In this document: in pieces, positions 4,820 to 64,000 of the stretch
How the letters are laid out: the number at the start of each line of letters is the position of its first letter
Position numbering within the stretch: position 1 is the stretch's first letter
Source: Collinsella sp. zg1085
GTDB taxonomy: Bacteria > Actinomycetota > Coriobacteriia > Coriobacteriales > Coriobacteriaceae
NCBI RefSeq assembly: GCF_018889955.1
Contig: NZ_CP076545.1
Location: 930,001-994,000 of the forward strand
DNA length: 64,000 nt
Direction of reading: 5' to 3'
Translations under genes and position numbers: made by a program
The notes under the pieces: generated by a model
Told to the model about the DNA's origin: nothing
The model's input: only the letters and a program-made list of their open reading frames with translations
The model's database searches: none

Positions 4820-5067
4820 AGTACCCCCTCGTGTTGTTAATACCCAAACGATTCTACCCATATTTGAAACTTCAAACTAGGATATGTTGAGGCTTATAAG
4901 AAAGTCTTTGTAATTGATGGGTTATACAAAACACCTCAATATCAAAACTCATGCTTGTGTAGTCATAGTCCCCTTATGTCGTGCAACCATGAGACACAAA
5001 GCCCGCTTAGAAAACAGCAGCTAAATAATCAAATTCAAATCTTTGAAGAAGATGCAATATAAAAAAA

Positions 5068-5144
<77 letters not shown>

Positions 5145-5171
5145 ACATTGTTGCTCTTTGCAACGGTGAAT

Positions 5172-5200
5172 ACTTTACTCAAGAACACATAGGAGTGCAA
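5172..5200 (-). promoter_or_regulatory. promoter for tRNA-Pro
   Basis: The minus strand reads TTGCAC (5195-5200), 17 bases, then TAAAGT (5172-5177), about 28 bases upstream of the tRNA. The short leader holds a small hairpin, GTTGC/GCAAC. Confidence 0.65.
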
Positions 5201-5275
5201 GCAAAATCTTTATAAGCGACAAACTCAATACGGCGCTTGGTAACAATCTCTTACCTCAAAGCTGCTGGATTCTCA

Positions 5276-17398: not shown

Positions 17399-18103
17399 TT
17401 ATTCAAAGTCATCGCTTGCAGATCCAATAATCATAATATCGTCTTCAGAAGCAGAAGCATCTTCTAACAGCTCCTGTTCTTCTTGCATATCCTCCTCAGT
17501 TTCTTCAAGCGTTGATTGAAACGATCGGCCACTCAAACGTTCACGAATAAACTGACGTGCCTGTTCATCAGGGGCAAACTGCTCAAGGTCTGGAAGATCA
17601 CGGGTTGAGCGGAGGCCAAACTTTTCTAAAAACGTGTTGGTAGTGCCATAAATGATTGCTTGACCATGTGCAGCATCGCGTCCAAGCTCACGGATAAGCC
17701 CCTTATCTACCAGTGAAGATAAAACACCATCTGAGTTAACACCGCGTATACCTTTGATGGCCTCGCGGGTAACAGGCTGGTGATATGCCACAACGGCAAG
17801 TGTCTCAAGTGCCGCCTGCGACAGACGCTGTGTGTCCCAACTAAGCACAAACGCCTCAACGTGCTCATGATAAGCGGGATGGGTAAAGAGCCGCCATCCA
17901 CCAGCAACTTCTCGAAGCTGAATACCACGATTTGCATCACGATATTCTGCCTGAAGCTCTGCTAATAAAGACGCTGCCTCACCTGGTGCAATCTCTAAAA
18001 CTTGAGCGAGCGCAGATGCACTCACTGGGTCAGTTGCAACAAGCAAAAGTGACTCAAGAGCCGCTTTAGTGGTGTGAAAGTCAAGACTTTGTAGTGATTC
18101 CAT
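17399..18103 (-). CDS. scpB: segregation and condensation protein B
   Basis: ScpB forms the kleisin complex with ScpA and SMC that condenses and segregates chromosomes. The 234 aa protein has two winged-helix domains (SLLLVATDPVSASALAQVL, then ALETLAVVAYHQPVTREAI and GLIRELGRD) and a long acidic C-terminal tail rich in Glu. ATG 18103 has GAGGAG upstream, overlapping the region just before the scpA stop. Confidence 0.95.
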   Translation of the reverse strand: MESLQSLDFHTTKAALESLLLVATDPVSASALAQVLEIAPGEAASLLAELQAEYRDANRGIQLREVAGGWRLFTHPAYHEHVEAFVLSWDTQRLSQAALETLAVVAYHQPVTREAIKGIRGVNSDGVLSSLVDKGLIRELGRDAAHGQAIIYGTTNTFLEKFGLRSTRDLPDLEQFAPDEQARQFIRERLSGRSFQSTLEETEEDMQEEQELLEDASASEDDIMIIGSASDDFE

Positions 18104-18106
18104 CGA

Positions 18107-18907
18107 TTAGCGCTCCTCAGATTCATCTATGTCTCCTACTACATAAGCAGGAGCACCCGATACGCGAGAAATAGAAATGGTGCCAAATAGTTCAGCCTGA
18201 CTCAGTGTTATAGAGCCTCGTTTTGCAAGCTCAAGAACGGCTAAAAAGGTAACAACAATTTGTTCAGGCGTAGGCGTATGTTCAATAAGGTCAGCAAAGG
18301 TAGTATGTGGGCGCACCTGAGTAAGCCTATCCACCGAGGCAACGCTGAGCTCAAGAGGAATACGTCGCGGCGCTACATGCTCTGCCTCAAGTAAGAAATG
18401 TTGACGTTTACTATCAATATCAGCGCACAACACTGCAAGACCTCGAAGTGTTATGCCCGCCAGATAGTCAGGCATAAGATTCAAAAAGTTTGGATCTGGA
18501 CCTGCTACACGAGGATGCATGCGAGATTCGGCTTCCATACGTGCACCAAGTGCTGTAGCTGCTCCGCGAAATTGTTTATAGGCAATAAGACGCTGAATGA
18601 GCACCTCACGCAATGCCTCGCCTGATAGGTCAGAAAGCTCCGACTCATCATCTTCATCAAGTGCTGAGGAGGCCCTATCATCGGGTACAAGGCTTTGCGC
18701 TTTAATGTCTAACAAGGTAGCCGCTACCAATAGAAAATCACTTGCAATATCGAGGTCAAGCGATTCCAAGCGGTCAAGCTCAGACAAATATTGCTCGCTT
18801 ACCTCTGCGATAGAAATTGAGCCAATATCAACCTTTTGCTTCGAAACAAGCTGCAACAAAAGGTCAAAAGGACCTGAATAAGCGGCTGTCGTGACACGGT
18901 AACTCAG
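18107..18907 (-). CDS. scpA: segregation and condensation protein A, apparent CTG start
   Basis: ScpA is the kleisin bridging SMC and ScpB. ORF calling from ATG/GTG/TTG would begin at TTG 18859, which cuts off the conserved N-terminus. The reading frame upstream encodes SYRVTTAAYSGPFDLLL, matching the family start, and begins at CTG 18907 with AAAGGAG five bases before it. An in-frame TAG sits just upstream and no ATG, GTG or TTG lies between. The product is then 266 aa, with the C-terminal winged helix (FLAVLELAKRGSITLSQAELFG) intact. The stop is followed closely by scpB. Confidence 0.88.
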   Translation of the reverse strand: MSYRVTTAAYSGPFDLLLQLVSKQKVDIGSISIAEVSEQYLSELDRLESLDLDIASDFLLVAATLLDIKAQSLVPDDRASSALDEDDESELSDLSGEALREVLIQRLIAYKQFRGAATALGARMEAESRMHPRVAGPDPNFLNLMPDYLAGITLRGLAVLCADIDSKRQHFLLEAEHVAPRRIPLELSVASVDRLTQVRPHTTFADLIEHTPTPEQIVVTFLAVLELAKRGSITLSQAELFGTISISRVSGAPAYVVGDIDESEER

Positions 18908-18952
18908 AGCTACTCCTTTACCCTACTTCAATACCACCTAGTGTAGCGTACT

Positions 18953-19648
18953 CTACAGACCCAAAGCGATAGTAAAGAGCATGTCAGTTAAGGGATACAC
19001 GGTTGCACCAAAGTAGAGCTGTAGCAAATCGATATGCAAAAGCTCTGGAAGAATATACAAGATACCTAACAAGATTGGCATGGCATATTGCTGCATACGG
19101 TAATAAGCCAAAAGCGCCTTACCGCGCAAGAAAAAGACGAGCACTGATGAACCATCGAGCGGTGGAATGGGAATGAGATTAAAAAATGCGAGCGTAAGAT
19201 TGATAGTAATGCCATAGGTGCACAAGAGATACAACATGTTAGGACTAAGCTGCTGCACAATAAGAGAGCCTATAAATCCCTGCTGAACGAGTATGCGCAG
19301 GGCTAGAGTGGCAATGCCAGCTAAAACAAGGTTTGAGACAGGTCCTGCAAGCGAGACCAGAACTTCATCACGTTTAGGATGTTTAAGATTACCAAGATAT
19401 ACGGGAACCGGTTTTGCAAAAGCAAAAACAGGACCTCCAGTCATAAGCATAAGACCTGGTAAGATTATAGTGCCAAAATAATCTATATGATTTAGAGGGT
19501 TTAGCGAGATGCGCCCACGTGAGCGTGCGGTTTCATCTCCTAACATATATGCCACAAGGGCATGTGCGCTTTCGTGCACGGTAATACTTATGATTAAGAC
19601 AAGGACTTGGATAAGAAGAAGGGGTAGCCCTTCAGGCAGGATGTTCAT
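18953..19648 (-). CDS. site-2 protease family (M50) membrane protein
   Basis: This 231 aa polytopic membrane metalloprotease-like protein has the zinc motif HESAH (near residues 25-29) and the second ligand motif NLIPIPPLDGS (near 160). It is shorter than RseP and lacks a PDZ domain, as in the YwhC-like group. Substrates are unknown. Its SD (AGGAAGAGG) overlaps the end of the small membrane protein gene upstream, and it lies 45 bases before scpA. Confidence 0.85.
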   Translation of the reverse strand: MNILPEGLPLLLIQVLVLIISITVHESAHALVAYMLGDETARSRGRISLNPLNHIDYFGTIILPGLMLMTGGPVFAFAKPVPVYLGNLKHPKRDEVLVSLAGPVSNLVLAGIATLALRILVQQGFIGSLIVQQLSPNMLYLLCTYGITINLTLAFFNLIPIPPLDGSSVLVFFLRGKALLAYYRMQQYAMPILLGILYILPELLHIDLLQLYFGATVYPLTDMLFTIALGL

Positions 19649-19650
19649 AT

Positions 19651-19959
19651 CTAGTACGACCTCTTCCTAAGCTGTGCTGCAATACGCAAACACACATAAT
19701 CAATGAGACATAAGATAACAACAAGACAGGCTATATCGAAGCGAAACACACCGCCAAACGGTGTTGAAATGAGCCCGTACCCAGCTAAGAGCGGAGGCAG
19801 CGAGGCAGAGAGCTCAACAATAAAGCCAGCCAAGCCAAGCTTTACCGAAAGACCTGCAAAACACATAACAACAATCAGTGCGGCTGTAAGCTGGGCAAGT
19901 ATGCGGCAAATCCAAGCAATGCAAGCAAGCACCAAGGCTCCCGCTTTATAGGCATGCAC
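19651..19959 (-). CDS. small membrane protein, unknown function
   Basis: I do not recognise this 102 aa protein. It has about three hydrophobic stretches (roughly residues 6-40, 45-65 and 75-92) and a basic C-terminus (AAQLRKRSY), so it is probably an inner-membrane protein. I chose GTG 19959 because GAGGAG lies nearby upstream; it overlaps the end of the ABC-F gene by 14 bases. It is followed by the M50 gene two bases later, which suggests co-expression with that protease. Confidence 0.6.
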
Positions 19960-21979
19960 GTTGAGTCTCCTCTTCAATCTGCTCGGTGAGTTCAAGCCAC
20001 TCATCTTCAAGTTTTGGAAGCTCAGTTTTTAACTCAGTGTATTCACGCAGCGCCTCGTTAAATGCATTGCTATCAGCATAGAGTTGCTCATCGGCCATGA
20101 GCACCATAAGCTCCTCATAGCGCACACGCTTTTTCTCAAGCATTGATTCTATGCGCGCAAGCCGCTGTTTTGCTGGCTTAAGTTTTTGATTGAGTGCGTG
20201 GCGCACCTCAGCTTCACGACGACGCTGTTCACGCGTTTTATAACCACTTGATGGCGCAGCTTGAGGAGCATCTTGGGCGTGGCTTTGAGTGGATGAGGTA
20301 GCCCTCACAGCTGGCGTGCTCGCATTCTGTGATGCCTCAGCACGCGCACGCTGAGCAAGATCTTCACGCTTAAACAGATAGTAGTCATAGTCGCCATCAT
20401 ATACGGTGACCTTGCCATCGCGAATGTCTATGATTCTATTAGCAATAGCGCGAACCAGATGCTCATCGTGGCTAATGAGAACAATCGTTCCCGGAAAACG
20501 CTTAAGCGCGTCCTCTAGCATGTCAACCGAATCAATATCGAGATGGTTCGTTGGCTCGTCCAAACAAAGAAGCGCTTCTGGCGCAACAAGCATTTTAGCT
20601 AAGGCAAGACGTGCTCGCTCGCCACCTGAGAGCACGCGAACCGATTTCTCAAGGTCATCGTTACCAAACAAGAATGCGCCAAGTAGACTGCGAATTTGTG
20701 GCATAGTCCAAGCAGGGGCTACCTCATCAATTTCTTGTACCACACTATGCGCTTCATTGAGACCTTCAAGCTGATGCTGTGCATAATACGCAACACCAAC
20801 ATTAAGACCAAGCTCACGCTTACCGTCTGTAGGTATCTCTTGTCCAAGAAGCAATTTTAAGAGCGTAGATTTACCAGCACCATTAGGTCCTACTAAGGCT
20901 ACACGGTCACCGCGATACAGCGTGAAATTGACATTGTTATAAACCGACTGTGCGCCAAATTGTTTTGACACATCAACAAGCTTGGCAACCATATCGCCTG
21001 TGCGCGGCGGGTCAGGAAAATGAAAGGAAAGCTTCTTTCTGCCTTCAGGCAATATGACCAGTTCTTGCTTAATCTGCTCAATACGCCGCATACGTTCCTG
21101 TGCCTGCACTGCCTTAGTTGCCTTATAGCGAAATTTATCAACAAACACCTGCATATGAGCAATTTCGCGCTCTTGAGCTGCTCGCTTTGCACGCATTTGC
21201 TCAAGATTATCCTCACGCTGCTTAAGATAGGAAGAGTAATTACCGGTATAAACGGTAATACGCCGGTTTTCAAGAGCAGCAATATGATCACAGGTTGCAT
21301 CCATAAAACTGCGGTCATGTGAAACCATGAGAACCGCACCTTGATAGCTTGCAATAAAACTTTTCAACCACTGAACACTTTCAAGGTCAAGATGGTTGGT
21401 TGGTTCGTCAAGCAATAAAACATCGGGATGACGCAAGAACAGCTTGGCGAGTGAGATACGCATTTGCCAACCGCCCGAAAACTCAGAGCAGCGTTTTGAA
21501 AATGCGTTAACTGAAAAGCCAAGACCAGCAAGGATTTGACGAGCATTACTTTCAAGCTCATAACCACCAAGTTGCTCAAAGAGATGTTGAACCTGCCCAT
21601 ACTCTTGGAGCAGTTCTTCTACCCGAGCTGAACTTAAGCACCGTTTTTCTGCCTCAGCAATGTCGAGCTCAAGCTGGTGAGCACGCATGCCTAGATTTTG
21701 AATTTCAACAGCAGCAGAGATAACCTCATCAAGAATACTCTTATCTCCTGCTAGGTTAGACTCTTGCTCAAGGTAGCCAATACTGCTGTCTTTGGCGCGC
21801 GTGACAGCTCCTGCATCAGCATGCTCTGTGCCCATAATAATTTTTAGTAAGGTTGTTTTACCTGCACCATTAGGGCCAACCAAGGCATAGCGCTCCCCAG
21901 CATTAATCTGTAAGCTAGCAGCACTGAGAAGCTGTCGCGCACCAAAACTCTTTTCAATTTTGTCGAGACTGAGAATCAT
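19946..21979 (-). CDS. ABC-F family ATP-binding protein
   Basis: This 677 aa soluble protein has two ABC domains, with P-loops GPNGAGKTT near 36 and GPNGAGKST in the second half, and paired [10 protein letters not shown] and [10 protein letters not shown] Walker B motifs. A charged interdomain linker and a C-terminal coiled coil (about 590-670) follow the usual plan, and no transmembrane segments are present. ABC-F proteins act on the ribosome. Whether this one is housekeeping or antibiotic-protective cannot be decided from sequence alone. ATG 21979 has GGAGG upstream. The tRNA-Val terminator hairpin ends only about 20 bases before the start. Confidence 0.92.
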
Positions 21980-21999
21980 AAAAGCTCGACCTCCATACG

Positions 22000-22026
22000 A
22001 AAAAGGGACCCGTAAAATCGGGTCCC
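22000..22026 (-). terminator. terminator after tRNA-Val, in front of the ABC-F gene
   Basis: Perfect 8-bp stem GGGACCCG/CGGGTCCC with a six-base loop, then TTTTT on the minus strand. It separates tRNA-Val from the ABC-F ribosome site by only a few bases. Confidence 0.8.
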
Positions 22027-22037
22027 TGAACTGGTGA

Positions 22038-22112
22038 TGGTGGGCGTTACAAGATTTGAACTTGTGACCCCATCCGTGTGAAGGATGTGCTCTACCCCTG
22101 AGCCAAACGCCC
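22038..22112 (-). tRNA. tRNA-Val (anticodon CAC)
   Basis: The 75-base gene includes an encoded CCA. The acceptor GGGCGTT pairs with AACGCCC. The anticodon stem CATCC/GGATG holds the loop TTCACAC, giving anticodon CAC. The T arm has GTTCAAATC. Confidence 0.97.
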
Positions 22113-22131
22113 ATGCCTGAACGGCTCATAA

Positions 22132-22161
22132 ATACTAGCATAGGAAGCCGCGCCGATTCAA
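22132..22161 (-). promoter_or_regulatory. promoter for tRNA-Val
   Basis: The minus strand reads TTGAAT (22156-22161), 18 bases, TAGTAT (22132-22137), about 20 bases before the tRNA. The match is moderate. It may also drive the ABC-F gene by read-through. Confidence 0.45.
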
Positions 22162-22301
22162 TAAGAATTGCTTGAAGGCTAAAAATGGCATAGAGAAGAA
22201 CAGGTTTTGGGAGCACGTCTTAAAGCTCTATCAAAGAGAACTGCTTGTTATTAAAGACATTCTCATGTTTGTCAAATCTATTAAACATAGGCTCTATCAA
22301 C

Positions 22302-22341: not shown

Positions 22342-22417
22342 TGGTGGGCCCAGTAGGATTCGAACCTACAACAAAGGGATTATGAGTCCCCTGCGCTGAC
22401 CGTTGCGCCATGAGCCC
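22342..22417 (-). tRNA. tRNA with CAT anticodon (elongator Met or Ile2)
   Basis: The 76-base gene includes an encoded CCA. The acceptor GGGCTCA pairs with TGGGCCC. The anticodon stem GGGGA/TCCCT holds the loop CTCATAA. CAT is shared by elongator Met and by Ile2 (lysidine-modified), and both commonly have this loop, so the amino acid is not settled. It lacks initiator features such as three G-C pairs at the base of the anticodon stem. Confidence 0.9.
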
Positions 22418-22422
22418 AATAT

Positions 22423-22448
22423 AAAAACAGCTCCTGAGCAAGGAGCTG
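22423..22448 (-). terminator. hairpin and T-run after tRNA-Ala
   Basis: Perfect 7-bp stem CAGCTCC/GGAGCTG, loop TTGCTCA on the minus strand, then TTTTTAT. It fills most of the 45 bases between tRNA-Ala and the next tRNA. Confidence 0.7.
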
Positions 22449-22462
22449 AGTTTGTACTTGGG

Positions 22463-22535
22463 TGGAGACGAGGGGGATCGAACCCCTGACCTCTTGACTG
22501 CCAGTCAAGCGCTCTCCCAGCTGAGCTACGCCCCC
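22463..22535 (-). tRNA. tRNA-Ala (anticodon GGC), no encoded CCA
   Basis: The 73-base gene has acceptor GGGGGCG paired with CGTCTCC (two G-T wobbles). The anticodon stem CTTGA/TCAAG holds the loop CTGGCAG, giving GGC. The T arm has GGTTCGATCC. The bases after the discriminator read CCC rather than CCA, so the end must be added after transcription. Confidence 0.95.
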
Positions 22536-22549
22536 AATCGGCAAAAAGT

Positions 22550-22578
22550 AATATAGGGGATGTGAGCCATTTGTGCAA
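22550..22578 (-). promoter_or_regulatory. promoter for tRNA-Ala
   Basis: The minus strand reads TTGCAC (22573-22578), 17 bases, TATATT (22550-22555), about 15 bases before the tRNA-Ala 5' end. It is a strong match to a housekeeping promoter. Confidence 0.75.
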
Positions 22579-22646
22579 GCATTTTTTCAAAACCCTACAA
22601 GCCACAACTCACAAAAGCAAGAATCACTCCCCCGTTCCCTTCTGAG

Positions 22647-48606: not shown

Positions 48607-48636
48607 TTTACCTATGTCTAGGCTCTTCGCTATACT
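48607..48636 (+). promoter_or_regulatory. promoter for dinB
   Basis: The plus strand reads TTTACC (48607-48612), 18 bases, TATACT (48631-48636). The -10 ends six bases before the dinB ATG, so transcription would begin near the start codon. No LexA-type box is evident. Confidence 0.5.
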
Positions 48637-48642
48637 GAAATC

Positions 48643-49914
48643 ATGAAAAGCGAACATACATACGATTTACAGCATGTGCTTGATGCCTTTTTTGGTGAAT
48701 GGAACGGTCCTGCCATAGGTTTATTAGACCTTGATGCTTTTTTTGCAAGTGTGGAGCAACTTGACCATCCGGAATGGCGCGGCAAGCCTGTTATCGTGGG
48801 TGGAAATCCACAGATGCACGGTGTTGTCTCAACTGCCTCATACGAGGCACGAGCTTTTGGCGTTCATTCTGCCATGCCAAGCGCACAAGCAAAACGCTTG
48901 TGTCCGCATGCCATCTGGACGCACGGCCATTTTGAGAGGTATCGCGCACTTAGTCGGCAGGTGATGAGTATCGTGGCCGATGAAACACCATATCTTGAAC
49001 AAGTGTCTATTGACGAGGCGTTTTTTGACATAAGCCCTGGTCGCTTTTCGTCAGAAAACCCCGTTGAGATTGTTAAGCGTATCTCGCGACGCGTCGCAGA
49101 GCTAGGAATTAGTTGCTCGATTGGACTTGGAACCTCAAAAACTATTGCAAAAATTGCAAGCGAGCGCGACAAACCAAACGGCATCACACTCGTAGCTCCA
49201 GGTACCGAGCAAAGTTTTCTCGAACCCCTACCTGTGCGTGCTCTCAGCGGCATTGGATCGTCGTCGTATCGCTCGCTCAGACAGCTTGGTATTACTACGC
49301 TTGGCCAACTTGGAAGAGCAGATGTGCGTGATTTGGTACCAATCTTTGGGAGTTCTGCCAAGCGCATGCAAAACCGAGCACGCGGCGTGGAACAAAGTCA
49401 GGTCAGAGCGCTGGACGATTATGCACCGGTAAAATCAGTGAGTTGTGAGCGCACCTATGCACAAGACCTTACTACCGAAGTTGAGCTTCATGCTGCCCTC
49501 GAGATACTTGGAGCTGAGCTCGGTCGTCGTCTGCGAAAAAAGTGCCTCTGTGGCACCACCATTACCCTCAAGCTAAAATGGGGCAATCGAGACCTTCATA
49601 CCGCAAGCATGCAACTAAGCGCACCCAGCGACAATGAGCATGAGTTTATGCCAGAGGTCCTAAAACTGCTTTCAAAACTCTGGATACCAGGCACACCTGT
49701 CAGGCTGGCAGGTATTGGTATGACCCATTTTGACCATAGGCTTGAGCAGCAAAACATACTCAACAGCCTCGATAGCGCCACTCCTGGCAAGAATCAACGA
49801 AACCTCAGCCTTGCTATTGATGCGCTCCATGAACGCTTTGGTAACCACGTGCTTGGGTATGGACGCGAGCGGCATTTTACTCATCCAGACAAACACACAC
49901 CATCAGATAAATAA
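48643..49914 (+). CDS. dinB: DNA polymerase IV (Y family)
   Basis: This low-fidelity translesion polymerase is 423 aa. Catalytic residues are in LDLDAFFASVEQ (Asp29) and QVSIDEAFFDIS (Asp/Glu near 123); thumb and little-finger domains follow. No obvious beta-clamp motif stands out at the C-terminus. About 25 residues precede the usual family start. ATG 48643 has no SD. It is the only plus-strand gene in the interior of the window, divergent from rpsP and convergent with rsfS. Confidence 0.95.
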   Translation: MKSEHTYDLQHVLDAFFGEWNGPAIGLLDLDAFFASVEQLDHPEWRGKPVIVGGNPQMHGVVSTASYEARAFGVHSAMPSAQAKRLCPHAIWTHGHFERYRALSRQVMSIVADETPYLEQVSIDEAFFDISPGRFSSENPVEIVKRISRRVAELGISCSIGLGTSKTIAKIASERDKPNGITLVAPGTEQSFLEPLPVRALSGIGSSSYRSLRQLGITTLGQLGRADVRDLVPIFGSSAKRMQNRARGVEQSQVRALDDYAPVKSVSCERTYAQDLTTEVELHAALEILGAELGRRLRKKCLCGTTITLKLKWGNRDLHTASMQLSAPSDNEHEFMPEVLKLLSKLWIPGTPVRLAGIGMTHFDHRLEQQNILNSLDSATPGKNQRNLSLAIDALHERFGNHVLGYGRERHFTHPDKHTPSDK

Positions 49915-63473: not shown

Positions 63474-64000
63474 TTAGTTAGTGTGCGGAGTATCAGCTGT
63501 CTCAGACGTAGATGAGGCAGTATCTGGACTGGTGGGCGCAGCTGTGGAGCTGCTCATGTCTGTGGTGGGCGTAGCCTCGGTAGTAGCCGCATGAGCTGGA
63601 GCTGAATTAGGCTCAGTGCTTGTTGATGTGCCCTCACTGCTCAAAGTTGAACCCGACGATGCTGGAGTAGCGTTGGTATCACCAAAATCAAGAATAATGT
63701 TTGAAACTGTCCAGCCAATGCCCGAACGGACAAAGTCAACGCGATAATTTTGAGTTCCACCGCGCGACAGCGTGGCTTTGACCGTAGCTGTTGAACTTGT
63801 CATAGAACGGTCAAGTCCCTCAATGCTTGGGGTAGCTCCCACAGGAATACTCGATACAAGAACACGCTTAGCTTCTTCAGTGAGCCCCGGTGCTAGATAT
63901 GCATTGGTATCTGTTCCATCGGTTACCGCATTAAATAAGTTGCTCACAACATCTTGCTGGCTGGGATAGCCAATTCCTTGTGTATAGGCAAATGCTAAAC
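63474..64000 (-). CDS. unknown protein with Ser/Thr-rich tail, 5' end beyond window
   Basis: The frame is open to the right edge, so at least 175 residues are seen and the N-terminus is missing. A folded-looking part (NLFNAVTDGTDTNAYLAPGL, NYRVDFVRSGIGWTVSNIIL) is followed by a tail of about 65 residues rich in Ser, Thr, Ala and Pro. I do not recognise it. The tail resembles extracellular linkers or spacers, so a membrane-anchored or secreted protein is possible. It lies 24 bases before mreB and may be in the same transcript. Confidence 0.65.
   Translation of the reverse strand, partial: LAFAYTQGIGYPSQQDVVSNLFNAVTDGTDTNAYLAPGLTEEAKRVLVSSIPVGATPSIEGLDRSMTSSTATVKATLSRGGTQNYRVDFVRSGIGWTVSNIILDFGDTNATPASSGSTLSSEGTSTSTEPNSAPAHAATTEATPTTDMSSSTAAPTSPDTASSTSETADTPHTN

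Follow-up and report, generated by a model that had tools for sequence, protein, structure and literature searches.

The window considered here is a 64,000-nucleotide stretch of the Collinsella sp. zg1085 genome (NZ_CP076545.1, positions 930,001 to 994,000), and it carries scpA and scpB in immediate succession on the minus strand (Table 1). The scpA product is matched by the Pfam SMC_ScpA profile (PF02616, E 3.7e-30) along the length of the profile (profile positions 1-230 of 232). Five NCBIfam models (four PRK00104 and one PRK00478) also match this protein, with scores below their curated cut-offs. Furthermore, the adjacent scpB provides the operon-like arrangement expected of an scpA gene. 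The beginning of the gene is more unusual, and an earlier note on this DNA had proposed that it appears to start at a CTG codon.

Table 1. Features of the scpA start region and its neighbors, in window coordinates
Feature	Position	Strand	Remarks and basis
scpA, kleisin subunit of the SMC-ScpAB complex	18107..18907	minus	266 codons from CTG, plus TAA stop; PF02616, NCBIfam, homologues
CTG, proposed start codon	18905..18907	minus	Homologues have ATG, GTG or TTG in this column; no canonical codon separates it from the in-frame stop above
AAAGGAG Shine-Dalgarno site	18913..18919	minus	5 bases 5' of CTG; pairs with the genome's own 16S tail
In-frame TAG closing the scpA frame upstream	18923..18925	minus	Frame reading
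Further in-frame TAGs upstream of scpA	18938-18940, 18953-18955	minus	The latter is the stop of the preceding gene
TTG, first in-frame canonical start	18857..18859	minus	Codon 17; a start there would remove (L)SYRVTTAAYSGPFDLL
scpB	17399..18103	minus	ATG 3 bases past the scpA stop; TIGR00281, E 6.5e-40
Preceding gene, M50-like intramembrane protease	18953..19648	minus	Named from sequence and a weak NCBIfam metalloprotease match

The stop codon of the preceding gene (18955-18953) lies 45 bases from the scpA CTG. From the TAG at 18925-18923, the scpA frame passes through GGT AAA GGA GTA GCT to the CTG (18907-18905) and then through 15 codons (AGT TAC CGT GTC ACG ACA GCC GCT TAT TCA GGT CCT TTT GAC CTT) to the TTG at 18859; this region translates to LSYRVTTAAYSGPFDLLL. 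From the TAG at 18925 up to the TTG at 18859, the scpA frame contains no ATG, GTG or TTG, and the CTG is the sole NTG codon that this open part holds ahead of 18859. Just one further codon within it differs from ATG by a single base, an ACG (18892-18890), which has no suitably spaced Shine-Dalgarno site. Readings of the frame and of the motif therefore agree with the earlier note that the CTG is the sole start-like codon with a good ribosome site, five bases past AAAGGAG, and that an in-frame TAG closes the frame just upstream, with two more TAGs beyond it. Read-through from the preceding gene was rejected in view of these three in-frame stops. A product initiated at the CTG is predicted to begin (M)SYRVTTAAYSGPFDLLLQ...

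Both copies of the 16S rRNA gene in this genome end in GGATCACCTCCTTTCT, which makes AAAGGAG a perfect seven-base partner. Like natural CTG-start genes, scpA has a Shine-Dalgarno site that is complementary to its own 16S tail and lies at a working distance, and downstream of the in-frame stop no ATG, GTG or TTG of its frame precedes the CTG. The arrangement AAAGGAG-N5-CTG occurs once in the window when both strands are counted, against a mean of 0.11 in shuffled sequences. Because at least one occurrence was present in 10 of 100 shuffles, the motif alone is mildly unusual and constitutes weak evidence. RNA structure at the scpA start was considered and rejected, the predicted fold being no stronger than those of shuffles (z 1.03). 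The weight for a CTG start, as judged from sequence, comes instead from homology.

Homologues of ScpA were found in 57 of 58 relatives, in all 43 genomes of the genus, in all 65 of the family, and, with a distant ScpA (L131) as query, in 378 of 395 genomes of the order. Start regions were read at 236 of 251 loci and yielded 178 distinct sequences, the window included; the order-level regions are a sample from among the matches listed, and the 15 loci without a match were expected, since 15 of the 20 syntenic stretches do not contain scpA. The codon aligned with CTG 18907 is ATG in 95 of the distinct N-termini, GTG in 57, TTG in 15 and CTG in 2. The remaining nine, among them a distant Zixibacteriota match (L067), have another codon at this column and a canonical one in frame 1-4 codons upstream. 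Thus, 176 of 178 N-termini have a canonical codon at the column or at most four codons before it, and the other two are the CTG cases. Ordinary ScpA genes of the Coriobacteriales encode the same protein with the same start column and the same scpA-scpB order, and differ from scpA of the window in this canonical codon. The earlier note had called for a look at the N-termini of relatives and had counted a different start in them against the CTG; in the relatives an ATG, GTG or TTG sits at the CTG codon, so that the codon differs and the position is the same.

Within the genus sample, CTG is present in the window alone, which implies that it has not been kept over long times. The second CTG case is a metagenome-assembled genome (MAG) of another family (L131, identical to L144; 78% complete), where the codon occupies the same column (L131:408-410), follows GGGAGG by 8 bases, and has no in-frame canonical codon for the 61 codons up to the stop. 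This is a weaker case than that of the window, because a GTG at codon 5 offers a possible alternative start. Among named matches, the closest ScpA proteins are those of Collinsella species and a Coriobacteriaceae MAG. The relative with the highest similarity (L002/L031, 79% identity) has a TTG at the column behind AAGGAG, and the five syntenic relatives start scpA with TTG in four cases and ATG in one. A single base change in such a TTG would yield CTG. A quick protein tree (73 rows) puts the window on a long branch whose placement it does not resolve, and no ancestral codon is therefore claimed from it; a change from TTG to CTG nonetheless would be the simplest path of origin, with the ancestor unproven.

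The pattern of substitutions provides another line of evidence. Codons 2-16 were compared with 91 entries from relatives, chosen at 70% identity or more over the stretch available and including near-identical species and N-terminal-only stretches. There were 872 synonymous and 230 non-synonymous changes, or 79% synonymous, when 26% would be expected from random single changes. The synonymous share is 66% in codons 18-60 and again 66% in codons 61-250. Furthermore, base differences at codon positions 1, 2 and 3 number 284, 272 and 1065 after the CTG, compared to 503, 529 and 595 over a 24-base stretch ahead of it. The third-position pattern is thus present after the CTG and absent before it, which indicates that protein-level conservation begins right after the CTG and not at TTG 18859. 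As in natural CTG-start genes, the start position is shared with homologues, and conservation of the protein extends as far as the CTG. A start at the out-of-frame GTG 18897 followed by a frameshift was also considered and rejected, because the ScpA frame shows its third-position pattern from as early as codon 2.

These data bear directly on whether translation might begin at TTG 18859, or at 18856, in which case ScpA would lose 16 or 17 residues. That TTG is the first canonical start of the frame, and the 250-residue form fits PF02616 as well as the long form does (106.4 and 106.1 bits, respectively); the profile match begins at residue 20 and is neutral on the start. However, the TTG lacks any AGGA, GGAG or GAGG at a working distance on its 5' side, and the residues that would be lost (SYRV...SGPFDLL) are conserved under strong synonymous constraint. 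The same residues can be aligned to ScpA N-terminal domains of solved structure (3w6j, beginning at query residue 1, and 3zgx, beginning at residue 3), and removing them lowers all five NCBIfam scores by 15-22 bits. A downstream start accordingly seems scarcely credible. The anatomy agrees with that of the earlier note, in which the stretch above the TTG restores the conserved ScpA N-terminus, including SGPFDLLL. The strong constraint on the 15 codons after the CTG, together with the start column of the homologues, supports the interpretation that scpA appears to start at CTG.

The initiation machinery of this organism looks normal. Among the 30 of 45 tRNA matches that were scanned is a CAU tRNA (L285) with a CCGGG/CCCGG anticodon stem; a G-C rich anticodon stem marks initiators, and L285 looks to be of initiator type. 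Altered machinery, in the form of a changed anticodon or a changed 16S tail, was rejected as an explanation on finding that this tRNA and the anti-Shine-Dalgarno sequence both have an ordinary appearance. The genome also starts smc, like scpB, with ATG.

To place the CTG among its neighbors, 66 open reading frames (ORFs) of the window with reciprocal matches in at least two of five syntenic relatives were surveyed automatically, and 17 were flagged, scpA included. On reading, a canonical start lies at the N-terminus or close to it in 13 of the other 16. The three outside this resolved group are 2-523 at the left window edge, 63477-63998 at the right edge, and 48622-49911 on the plus strand, where the flagged column is internal and the ORF overlaps minus-strand ORFs. 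The automatically chosen column is often an internal Met, and for this reason 16 further rows were read by hand, 14 of which have a canonical start near the N-terminus. The other two, 5024-5209 and 22383-22586, overlap tRNA matches and are probably tRNA genes that were read as ORFs. The remaining, unflagged rows were judged automatically, with a canonical codon occupying the column selected. Overall, no second CTG start was seen among the resolvable rows of this largely hand-read survey. Separately, ORF 19946-22216 (ATP-binding-cassette-like, as named from sequence) opens upstream at a GTG, but its relatives place the start column at ATG 21979, and its first 79 codons are therefore probably untranslated.

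An error in base calling or consensus could also create an apparent CTG, in which case the true codon would be TTG (or ATG or GTG) and the gene ordinary. The most similar relative has TTG at this codon, a single base away; within the genus sample, CTG is confined to this species; and a search for a second assembly of the species found none. Against this, the genome is a single contig of 1,720,218 bases with 99.93% completeness, the survey of window ORFs gave no other missing start among its resolvable rows, and a second, distant lineage (L131) also has CTG at this position with no in-frame canonical codon upstream. Such an error is considered improbable, and of the three competing accounts weighed here it is the least unlikely.

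Natural CTG starts have precedents. One is the FIB rep gene of F-like plasmids in E. coli, for which a CTG start has been demonstrated and a CTG to CTC change abolished replication (PMC11983097). Like scpA, FIB rep has its CTG behind a good ribosome site, and low expression has been proposed for it, as is proposed for scpA; it is mostly misannotated at a GTG 14 codons downstream, akin to the scpA TTG 16 codons downstream (PMC11983097). The two differ in that FIB rep is a plasmid replication gene characterized by N-terminal analysis and mutation (PMC11983097), whereas the CTG start of the chromosomal scpA is proposed from sequence. CTG starts are thus already known, and the scpA case adds another member to a rare but familiar kind and reveals no new mechanism. 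In a search of a partial literature collection, no published report of a CTG start for scpA in Coriobacteria or Collinsella was found among the papers listed.

Other studies illustrate how rarely such codons are used. An analysis cited by PMC11983097 counted CTG as the annotated start of 20 genes out of nearly 85,000, and across 36 prokaryote genome groups CUG was gained from only 2 of 61,358 AUG, 1 of 5,080 GUG and 1 of 2,468 UUG ancestral starts (PMC5622118). CUG forms less stable initiation complexes than do AUG, GUG or UUG (PMC11497404). Two reports count against a CTG start in scpA: CTG was not enriched in a selection of start codons in mycobacteria (PMC4633059), and an upstream CUG of Caulobacter dnaA was toeprinted and yet is unused in vivo (PMC8443254). 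Also, CTG output is about 10-fold below that of TTG (Hecht et al., as cited by PMC11983097), which could mean that the codon is a start-loss mutation and that scpA is barely translated and decaying. However, the 266-codon frame is intact with no stop, codon differences are mostly synonymous in all three parts of the gene compared above, and the scpB behind it is intact with its ATG. Decay of scpA is therefore very unlikely, if slightly less so than a downstream start.

A second group of precedents concerns regulated genes. The sigR gene of Streptomyces has a GTC start that is repressed by initiation factor IF3 and keeps the first protein of its operon below the second (PMC5472188). Its likeness to scpA lies in an actinobacterial operon whose first gene has a non-canonical start, which sets the ratio of two partner proteins for sigR and may do so for scpA; sigR is misannotated in databases, and scpA is easily misannotated too. 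It differs in the GTC codon and in demonstrated IF3 control (PMC5472188), and the CTG of scpA is not conserved in relatives. Further conserved non-canonical starts with extended Shine-Dalgarno sites, including the AUA of infC, are described for S. aureus (PMC13009471). The infC gene starts with ATT in E. coli, ATC in Streptomyces and AUA in S. aureus, non-canonical in each case behind a strong Shine-Dalgarno site, as in scpA, but the infC starts are conserved and autoregulatory whereas the scpA CTG is singular in its genus. Regulatory starts of the infC or sigR type keep their codon across relatives, and the scpA CTG does not. On the FIB rep and sigR precedents, most gene callers would probably truncate scpA, as the earlier note had anticipated.

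The gene for IF3 itself was read in this genus as well. In this genome (position 536393) and at all 30 genus loci read, the infC start column holds ATA behind GGAGG; 40 of 42 genus genomes were matched, many of them near-identical. Two loci (L294 and L295) have no in-frame canonical codon upstream and the other 28 have one, which in a large near-identical group is an ATG five codons upstream that overlaps the Shine-Dalgarno site. By analogy with the AUA of S. aureus infC, the ATA in this genus appears to be the known type of autoregulatory start.

Overall, translation of scpA from CTG 18907 is very probable. One base change might have turned a canonical start into CTG; the most similar relative has TTG. 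The ordinary CAU-anticodon fMet-tRNA would be set on the CUG by the strong AAAGGAG site at its spacing of 5 nt, and the product would be a full-length ScpA beginning (f)Met-SYRV. The CTG start is probably weak and helped by the strong Shine-Dalgarno site, and such weakness might be tolerated because small amounts of ScpA probably suffice. We infer initiation at the CTG itself, the lowered output and the tolerance through low demand from the features of the sequence, by which the CTG start is well supported.

A broader reading is that the weakness of the scpA start serves as a dosage device. If the kleisin ScpA is needed below the level of ScpB and SMC, its start might drift to GTG or TTG, and here and perhaps in one other lineage to CTG, while scpB, and in this genome also smc, keeps ATG. 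Among 92 scpA-scpB pairs from across the order, the weaker start codon belongs to scpA in 40 and to scpB in 5, with 47 equal. An initial set of 99 pairs was reduced to these by removing 5 in which scpB has no start close to the end of scpA and 2 whose scpA column holds a codon that is neither canonical nor CTG. For scpB, the canonical codon in frame and closest to the scpA stop counted as the start, and relatedness was only partly corrected. Counted by genus group, scpA is weaker in 19, scpB in 4, and the two are equal in 10, although these groups overlap between named and unnamed sources and are not independent. The bias would be in keeping with a lower demand for the kleisin than for its partners, and the dosage reading is offered as a speculative one, with the odds presently against it. 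If IF3 gates the CTG, the level of ScpA would track that of IF3, which is itself apparently started at ATA in this genus.

The CTG of scpA alone leaves the picture of initiation unchanged. Annotated CTG starts are very uncommon, and callers that expect ATG, GTG or TTG easily miss them, so that a well-supported chromosomal case is useful for annotation. It also suggests a route to more cases, namely homologous start columns that hold CTG behind a strong Shine-Dalgarno site. The scpA CTG would also serve to test what degree of start weakness is tolerated in an SMC kleisin.
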